A DNA stretch of 64,000 nucleotides from Victivallis vadensis (GTDB lineage Bacteria > Verrucomicrobiota > Lentisphaeria > Victivallales > Victivallaceae): NCBI RefSeq assembly GCF_003096415.1, contig NZ_QEKH01000020.1, forward strand, positions 1-64,000. The letters run 5' to 3'. The position numbers and the translations under genes are program-made. Shown here piece after piece: positions 4,705-45,540 of this stretch. The notes under the pieces were generated by a model. The model made no database searches. It had not been told where the DNA came from and was given only the letters and a program-made list of their open reading frames with translations. Each line of letters starts with the position of its first letter. Position 1 is the first letter of the stretch.

Positions 4705-4770
4705 GTTTTCCGCAGGAGTTTGAGGCAACGCACCATGCCCTTCTGGATTGCACGGGCGGGCAGGTACCAC

Positions 4771-5324
4771 CGCCAAGTACGCACGCCAATGCCCCTCCGG
4801 GGGGCGTACGGCGGCAAGGTGCCGCTGCCGGGTGCGCGCTCCACCCCTTCCGGGGTCGCGCGGCGGCTAACTCTTGCAAAGCATTGGTTGGTCTGCATAA
4901 CCACTTACGCGGCGCACAACAAGCGCGGTCAGCGCCGCGAACGAATGTGAGGGAATTACTTGCCTCCGGCAAGTAACGAGGAACGGTAGTGACGAAGCCG
5001 AACGTAGTGAGCGAAGCCCCCCTGGCGTAGTGAGCGCAGCGAACGTTGAAGGGTTGGCCGCCGCAGGCGGACAAGTAAGCGGCGAAGCCGCGCCCGCGAG
5101 CGGAAGTGCTCCGCAAGTCAACGTGAGTTCAAATCCGGACGGGGAGGTCCGGAGGGCGCTACCGGGCCCTCCGGAGCCATCCGCAGGCCAGAGGCGCGGT
5201 GCTCACTACCCTCCGGGCACCCTGCCTGTTCTTGCGCTCAAAAGTTGTTACCCTCCGGGCAGCTCTGCCTGTTTCTAACGCAATGCAAAGCCAACCATAA
5301 AACCCACGCGCGACTGGAGTGCGG
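4771..5324 (+). repeat. Mosaic hairpin-rich repeat, copy A
   Basis: Non-coding GC-rich stretch between the 1018-aa gene and trpS. Its core, 4882-5324, matches the reverse complement of 44865-45309 along the whole length, with scattered substitutions. It contains several stem-loops: 4958-4974 (ACTTGCC/GGCAAGT) and 5148-5175 (a 10-bp stem TCCGGAGGGC/GCCCTCCGGA with an 8-nt loop). A sub-repeat beginning CCCTCCGGGCA occurs twice near 5210-5275. A flanking part (4771-4881) has two further modules that are also found, in another order, beside copy B. Short open frames across it read as repetitive, low-complexity protein and have no ribosome binding sites, so I do not call them genes. No transposase or terminal inverted repeats were seen. 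Confidence 0.8.
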
Positions 5325-5343
5325 AGATGAATCTCCGCACTCC
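5316..5343. other. Perfect 12-bp stem-loop downstream of trpS
   Basis: GGAGTGCGGAGA (5316-5327), a 4-nt loop and TCTCCGCACTCC (5332-5343) form a perfect hairpin about 120 nt past the trpS stop. Neither strand has a T-run directly after it, so it is not a classical intrinsic terminator. It sits exactly where repeat copy A ends and the 46-bp tandem repeat begins. It could be a transcript-end or processing structure for trpS. Confidence 0.55.
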
Positions 5344-5455
5344 AAAGACGCTTCGCGTCGCGGGAGCAAGCCCAAAGGCGACGTACTCCAAAGACGCTTC
5401 GCGTCGCGGGAGCAAGCCCAAAGGCGATGTACTCCAAAGACGCTTCGCGTCGCGG
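5340..5455. repeat. 46-bp direct tandem repeat, about 2.5 copies
   Basis: A 46-bp unit starting CTCCAAAGACGCTTCGCGTC begins at 5340, 5386 and 5432. The first two copies are complete and differ by one base near the end. The third is cut after about 24 bp, close to the trpS stop codon. Each unit contains the small hairpin GACGCTTCGCGTC. Frames across it read as repeated protein strings, which is the usual effect of a period that is not a multiple of three, and are not genes. Confidence 0.9.
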
Positions 5456-5464
5456 CCGCGCAAC

Positions 5465-6427
5465 TTAGCGCAGGCCGACGGCGCGGCGGACTTTGTCCAT
5501 GGTCTTTTCGGCTTCGGCGCCGGCTTTTTCGGCACCCTTCGCCAGAACGCTCCAGACATAGTCGAGATTCTGTTCCAATTCGGCACGGCGCTGGCGCATC
5601 GGCTCGAAGTAGGCCCAGAGTTTGTCGAAAAGCGCCAGCTTGGCGTGGCCGTAACCGTAACCGCCGGCACGGTAACGCGCTTTCATCTCTTCGAGTTCTT
5701 CCGGGGTTGCGACCAGCTTGTAGAGGGCGACCACATTGCAATTATCCGGGTCTTTCGGTTCTTCCAGAGCCTTGCAGTCGGTGACCACATTCATGATCGC
5801 CTTCTTGATCTCCTTCTCTTTGCCGAAGATCGGGATGGTGTTGTTGTAGCTTTTGGACATCTTCTGGCCGTCGGTGCCCGGCACGATCGCGACCTCCTCC
5901 GGGATCAGCTCTTCCGGAATCGTAAAGACTTCGCCGTACTGATTGTTGAATTTGATCGCGATGTCTCGGGTGATTTCGAGGTGCTGCTTCTGATCCTTGC
6001 CGACCGGCACCAGATTGCTCTGGTAGATCAGGATGTCCGAGGCCATCAGCACCGGATAGGAGAAGAGGCCGTTGTTCGGCGCGAACCCCTTTGCGATCTT
6101 GTCCTTGTAGCTGTGGGCGCGCTCCAGCAGGCCCACCGGCGTCACGTTGTTCAGGATCCAGGTCAGCTCGCAGACCTGCGGCACGTCGGACTGGCGGAAC
6201 AGGATCGCCTTCTCCGGATCGACGCCGCAGGAAAGATAATTCAGCGTCAGCTCCAGCACGTTTTTGCGGAGCTGCTCCGGCTCCGGAGCGGTGGTCAGCG
6301 AGTGATAGTCCGCGAGGAAAATAAAGGTTTCCCCCTTGTCCTGGATGTTGATGATCTGCCGCATCGCGCCGAAATAGTTGCCGATGTGCGGAGTACCAGA
6401 AGGCTGGATTCCGGTCAGGATTCTCAT
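5465..6427 (-). CDS. trpS: Tryptophan--tRNA ligase
   Basis: 320 aa class I aminoacyl-tRNA synthetase that charges tRNA-Trp in the cytoplasm. The start MRILTGIQPSGTPHIGN holds the HIGH-type motif (HIGN, residues 14-17). The KMSKS motif is complete at 189-193 (GQKMSKSYNN), and GxDQ-type binding residues lie in VGKDQKQH near 145. Length is normal for bacterial TrpRS. The ATG is preceded by TAAGGAGTG, and this ribosome binding site includes the TAA stop of galK, so translation of the two genes is probably coupled. It is the last gene of the lpxK-GT39-galK-trpS run. A tryptophan synthetase behind sugar and lipid A genes is an odd neighbourhood with no obvious functional link. Confidence 0.96.
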   Translation of the reverse strand: MRILTGIQPSGTPHIGNYFGAMRQIINIQDKGETFIFLADYHSLTTAPEPEQLRKNVLELTLNYLSCGVDPEKAILFRQSDVPQVCELTWILNNVTPVGLLERAHSYKDKIAKGFAPNNGLFSYPVLMASDILIYQSNLVPVGKDQKQHLEITRDIAIKFNNQYGEVFTIPEELIPEEVAIVPGTDGQKMSKSYNNTIPIFGKEKEIKKAIMNVVTDCKALEEPKDPDNCNVVALYKLVATPEELEEMKARYRAGGYGYGHAKLALFDKLWAYFEPMRQRRAELEQNLDYVWSVLAKGAEKAGAEAEKTMDKVRRAVGLR

Positions 6428-44864: not shown

Positions 44865-45540
44865 CCGCACTCCAAATCGCGCGTGAGTTTTATATTCGGC
44901 TTTGCATTGCATCAAGAACAGGCCAGCTGCCCGGAGGGTAACAATTTTTGAGCACAATAACAGGCCAGCTGCCCGGAGGGTAGTGAGCACCGGGCCTCCG
45001 GCCTGCGGATGGCTCCGAGGGACGTCGCGCACGTCCCCCGGACCCCCTCGCCGGCGGCGGAGGCCAATTCGGTTGCGGAGCACTTCCGCTCGCGGGCGCG
45101 GCTTCGCCGCTTACTTGTCCGCCTGCGGCGGCCAACCCCTTCAACGCCCGCGTTGCGGGCTACGCCAGGGGGGGCTTCGCTCACTACGTTCGGCTTCGTC
45201 GCTATCGTTCCTCGTTACTTGCTAAAGGCAAGTAATTCCCTCACATTCGTTCGCGGCGCTGACCGCGCTTATTGTGCGCCGCGTAAGCGGTTATGGAGAC
45301 CAACCAATGTTCGCATGTGCCAAGCGCCGCGCGCCCCCCGTAGGGGCATTGGCGTGCGCACCCGGCAGCGGCACCTTGCCGCCGCGGCGCTTGCCGCGCT
45401 TATTGTGCGCCGTGTAAAAGGCGGCACGGCCTTATTATATACTGCCTGAAAGGCAATGTGGCCTTACTCATAGTCTTGGCGGCCGACCGATGCTTTGCAT
45501 GTGCCCGCCGCCCCGGCAGCAGTGCCCTGCCGCTGTCGGG
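44865..45540 (-). repeat. Mosaic hairpin-rich repeat, copy B (inverted relative to copy A)
   Basis: 44865-45309 matches the reverse complement of 4882-5324 from end to end. The stem-loop at 45217-45233 corresponds to the one at 4958-4974. The stem at 45014-45042 (TCCGAGGGACGT with ACGTCCCCCGGA) corresponds to 5148-5175 but has a different sequence. A hairpin at 45147-45159 (CCCGC/GCGGG) is present only here. 45310-45540 holds the flanking modules in a different order plus a second partial copy of the GCGCACAATAAGCGCGG segment. Open frames across it have no ribosome binding sites and are not called as genes. Confidence 0.8.

Follow-up and report, generated by a model that had tools for sequence, protein, structure and literature searches.

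The fimS switch carries a promoter and has dedicated invertases. In invertons and switches of this type, DNA inversion takes place directly upstream of genes for surface structures (PMC11892184, PMC9096935), a position shared by the modules described here; unlike in fimS, the part that would be flipped carries a ribosome-binding site, a start codon and a leader, with the housekeeping Xer recombinases as the candidate enzymes. The XerC-linked phase variation of mba in Ureaplasma parvum likewise joins a Xer-type recombinase and short inverted repeats to the switching of a surface protein (PMC3599477), yet it involves one or two loci, whereas the modules described here number dozens in a genome and combine dif-like arms with centres private to each. 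The dif (pdif) modules of Acinetobacter (PMC13141974, PMC12907356) are bounded by dif-like sites in inverse orientation, each with a XerC arm, a XerD arm and a 6-bp spacer, as are the modules of this study, in which the XerD arms lie inside (D type, in pdif terms). In contrast to the Acinetobacter modules, ours are chromosomal, 0.1-0.8 kb in length and without genes, and they lie at the starts of prepilin-like genes, to which they appear to supply the start codon. REP/BIME sequences are, like the element studied here, multicopy, intergenic and palindromic, but our element is larger and multi-hairpin, with a conserved long-range helix, and no RAYT-type transposase was found. Judged from sequence, the putative switches of this study, start codons of pilin-like genes that flip between dif sites and bring along a structured element as cargo, represent a new form of dif module and of phase variation by inversion; our literature search found no paper that links Victivallis or Lentisphaerota to inverted repeats or to invertible prepilin genes.

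Two copies of the element in the window

The window is a 64,000-nt stretch of the Victivallis vadensis genome (contig NZ_QEKH01000020.1) and holds copy A on the plus strand and copy B on the minus strand. Their conserved structured cores, at 4909-5104 and 45085-45282, match our covariance model R1, built on a 196-nt core, with 239 and 229 bits, respectively. Upstream of each core lie palindromic modules (4755-4908 in A, 45283-45420 in B), and units similar to those of copy A stand in tandem ahead of other copies. The 3′ tails extend over 5176-5345, with a terminal palindrome TGGAGTGCGGAGAT-GA-ATCTCCGCACTCCA, and over 44869-45013. A tandem 46-bp repeat containing GACGCTTCGCGTC directly follows copy A on its 3′ side (5336-5473).

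The original prediction drew on a stem that differs between the copies on both arms while its pairing is kept. This stem is present in copy A as TCCGGAGGGC (5148-5157) with GCCCTCCGGA (5166-5175) and in copy B as TCCGGGGGACGT (45042-45031) with ACGTCCCTCGGA (45025-45014). Two of its pairs are indeed altered on both sides, from A-U to G-C and from G-C to A-U, and one pair becomes G-U in copy B. A second stem, said to keep its pairs under a changing loop, does so in eight of nine pairs, with the loop TCC of TTACTTGCC-TCC-GGCAAGTAA in copy A (4956-4976) replaced by CTTTA in copy B (TTACTTGC-CTTTA-GCAAGTAA, 45235-45215); it covaries with TATTTTGC/GCAAAATA forms in other copies. Further along the core of copy A, the helix CCCT (5020-5023) with AGGG (5050-5053) appears in other copies as CTCC/GGAG or CTCT/AGAG, the hairpin CCGCC-GCA-GGCGG (5058-5070) as CGGGC-GCA-GCCCG, and the hairpin GCGGC-GAA-GCCGC (5079-5091) as GGCCC/GGGCC or GGGGC/GCCCC.

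No dif-like site lies near copy A or B, in which they too differ from the Acinetobacter modules, and the same is true of almost all other intergenic copies. These occur in every orientation relative to the flanking genes, with none preferred.

Copy number and distribution

In the window's own genome (G000; 5.2 Mb in 87 contigs), a nucleotide search gave at least 40 long matches and R1 gave 59, mostly full length; about 55 distinct copies were examined. Outside it, R1 matches were found in five further genomes of the genus and in two other genera of its family, g17 and g34, plus one weak match elsewhere, for a total of 14 of the 137 genomes of the order, and the element has been amplified in a lineage-specific manner in each genome. 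A tree of the copies places copy A in the lineage that includes the copies linked to prepilin-like genes and copy B in the other group. An exact 19-base pattern matched four unrelated genomes, and one 28-base core segment had no exact match in viral contigs.

A known RNA family was rejected as an identity, with no Rfam match at the gathering score in the window or four relatives; the Rfam intron covariance models did not match the elements in this same set, and self-splicing introns are thus not supported. In G003 and G002, one orthologous single copy (L124, L125) stands next to short tandem repeat arrays. Several of the g17 copies (L138-L144; G052, G024) have palindromes GTTGCAAAAC..GTTTTGCAAC at their borders, and each locus has outer stems of its own, which gives the appearance of insertion into terminator hairpins.

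Copies beside prepilin-like genes

In G000, 23 of the 55 copies adjoin the start of a prepilin-like gene, and the core of 22 of these 23 lies in sense, 0.1-0.6 kb upstream. The prepilin-like gene families are very large, with at least 150 members confirmed among 308 candidates in G000 and at least 150 among 283 in the congener G005. Because G000 has at least 150 such genes, about 2 of 55 adjacencies would be expected by chance, by rough arithmetic. The genes score at the N_methyl (PF07963) cut-off or just under it, and in part they also match DUF1559. Eleven of the 12 copies in G005 adjoin a gene beginning with the prepilin motif; the element there is about 0.57 kb long, aligned copies carry a broken prepilin start at their other end, and most assembled copies have the core in antisense to the intact gene (OFF). 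A coding element was rejected, given that the G005 copies share only this ∼0.57 kb and that it is non-coding except for the leader. In genus g34, the element also precedes prepilin-like genes with a similar leader.

Covariation in the core

Covariation gives good support for a core of about 200 nt that folds into a multi-hairpin structure kept in evolution. In an alignment of 30 copies with a 28-pair structure, 99.9% of the 840 cells are paired, versus 34-50% when the partners are slid, and nine pairs are changed on both sides. A covariation test of the kind proposed with the original prediction showed several hairpin pairs to exceed a tree-based null. This null was our own R-scape-like simulation with 50 replicates on 47 copies, and it assumes no recombination between copies, which do recombine. 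Under it, the hairpin CCGCC/GGCGG and the second stem in its copy B form have clear covarying pairs whose scores the null never reached, and the helix CCCT/AGGG has covarying pairs of which one was never reached and one has E=0.08. Across three genera (24-sequence alignment), a long-range helix is paired in 96.2% of cells, versus 17-40% when slid, with both-side changes in 33 cells, including seven sequences each at 39-118, 49-109 and 50-108. Unpaired motifs such as GGTNA and GAGCGAAG are conserved as well.

The stem first singled out is pairing-compatible in nearly all copies; it fails the tree null within G000 (E about 25-31, not significant) because its variants follow one split between the two subfamilies. 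In genus g17 this stem is altered again (CCAAGGGGACA.., CCAAGGGGAGA.., CCAGGAGGGC..), alongside swaps of whole hairpins.

RNA or DNA as the acting molecule

The original prediction took this pattern as the mark of a conserved RNA structure. Conserved secondary structure holds up, through the covariation within the genome and the helix shared across genera; RNA as the acting molecule does not follow with it. The stems are almost purely Watson-Crick and departures are rare: 27 G-T versus 16 A-C over the covarying helices of all sets (p=0.13), and nine versus three in G000. These counts leave statistically unsupported the earlier argument that the single G-U fixes the sense of the RNA. Folding energy was rejected as a means of choosing the strand, as minimum free energy differs less between strands than among random 300-mers.

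An alternative is an element that acts as DNA: instead of an RNA gene it would be a non-autonomous mobile element, whose palindromes are kept since a mobilising enzyme recognises their single-stranded or cruciform form. The near absence of non-Watson-Crick pairs, with G-T and A-C departures not significantly different, fits such an element, as do the many copies dispersed between genes in all orientations, their amplification by lineage in each genome and the palindromes at both ends of intergenic copies. We nevertheless regard it as unlikely. No autonomous partner and no terminal repeats common to the intergenic copies were found, and the prepilin-linked copies in G000 are almost always in the sense of the gene. 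Mobility of the RAYT/REP kind was rejected, G000 having no PF01797 match and hence no Y1 (RAYT) transposase by this search, which does find matches in 5 of 14 control genomes.

Less probable still is that most of the compensatory changes arose as a by-product of mutation, with DNA template switching and gene conversion between copies swapping whole perfect hairpins under little or no structural selection. According to published work (PMC8794818), template switching can give rise to perfect compensatory changes of several bases at once. Local swaps of hairpins with no G-U intermediate are likewise expected from it and from exchange between copies; one-sided intermediates are few here, and otherwise distant copies share whole-hairpin swaps. 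However, the long-range helix that covaries over three genera is not a local palindrome, and together with the conserved unpaired motifs it argues against a purely mutational origin. A core that acts as RNA is plausible on account of its position beside prepilin-like genes, where in the G000 copies it is almost always in sense and upstream of a ribosome-binding site.

Modules bounded by dif-like sites

The ends of the G005 element are inverted copies of CGCATAAT-NNNNNN-TATGTKAA, that is, of dif arms, for which the E. coli dif site as quoted in PMC3025954 served as the standard of comparison. The dif-arm pattern has 32, 55 and 62 matches in G000, G005 and G007, while the reversed pattern has 4, 1 and 1. 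The XerD arm begins with G in G000 and G005, as against T in the canonical site. A single dif-like copy, evidently the chromosomal dif, is present in most of the family's other genomes. The six-base centre is identical within 40 of 47 inverted pairs and differs between loci; shuffling within genomes gave at most 5, 12 and 12 equal centres for the same three genomes. XerD passes its curated cut-off, and a XerC-like candidate protein scores slightly below its own.

One locus in G005 (C23:34617-34911) and its ortholog in G006 (C19:3155-3449), the pair L182/L187, share about 98.7% identity in their flanks, over 1.5 kb to either side, and their interiors match in 293 of 295 bases only after one is reverse-complemented. 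Because the two ends change together, we had considered whether the terminal inverted repeats form the closing stem of an RNA; this was rejected as it is the dif centre that changes, and the orthologous inversion is the better explanation.

In G000, the element lies inside a dif-bounded module in a few intact cases. Most of the inspected prepilin-linked copies there have lost the left site, and these look locked ON. One 823-bp inverted pair with equal centre GCCCAG (L164; C8:167020-167842) encloses a core copy near a contig end that cuts off the neighbouring gene. In the congener G007, dif-like sites form dozens of inverted pairs about 127 bp in size (L189-L208), nearly all at the starts of prepilin-like genes and in either the ON or the OFF orientation. 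As these modules lack the core, the core is cargo and not the switch, and their occurrence in both orientations indicates that switching does not require it. G055, G053 and G062 (genera g17 and g15) likewise have dif-like sites in inverted pairs, about 130 bp apart and with matching centres, and the switch may accordingly be wider in distribution than the element.

Inversion in silico and the gene start

We inverted in silico each of 44 modules beside a prepilin gene. For 38 of them, exactly one orientation gives a ribosome-binding site and an ATG in frame with the gene, and the restored start lies 51 nt before FTLIELLV in 32 of these 38. As assembled, 16 modules are ON, 22 OFF, none both and six neither. 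The dif-bounded modules at prepilin-like genes thus look like XerCD phase-variation switches, as far as can be read from their sequences. That they are decayed insertions which do not invert, their two orientations reflecting separate insertion events, is very improbable: the broken prepilin starts on the far side do resemble insertion scars and one site is lost in most G000 modules, but the matched centres within modules, the restoration of a start by exactly one orientation, and the shared flanks and site sequence of L182 and L187, which differ only by interior inversion, all argue against it.

Discussion

Under the explanation we favour, the structured element would be the 5′ part of small modules between inverted dif-like sites at the starts of prepilin-like genes. 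We infer that XerCD recombination flips the module, from the sites, the matched centres and the one orthologous inversion. As read from the sequence, the gene would gain a ribosome-binding site, a start codon and a short leader in the ON orientation, which would also place the core in sense upstream, presumably as part of the mRNA leader. We read copies A and B as dispersed intergenic relatives of the module-borne element, with the fold kept and no identified gene under their control. Taken as a whole, it is probable, though by no means assured, that copies A and B belong to two subfamilies of a multicopy folded element specific to this bacterial family, that the element is cargo of XerCD-flipped modules and their leader in the ON state, and that the window copies are its dispersed relatives.

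More tentatively, and at somewhat less than even confidence, we propose that an undescribed structured RNA is the 5′ leader in a genome-wide phase variation, in which each of dozens of pilin-like genes would possess a start codon that flips between dif sites of its own; the housekeeping XerCD would serve them all, and differences in the spacers would insulate them from one another as well as from the chromosomal dif. If this is true, the machinery of chromosome-dimer resolution also serves to turn pilin-like genes on and off at many loci, and each switch owes its specificity to its short spacers. The system would then be a natural test of how XerCD separates many dif-like sites, and cell-to-cell variation would be predicted in these little-studied bacteria, whose structured element, conserved over genera, comes with defined loci for testing a role as leader RNA.
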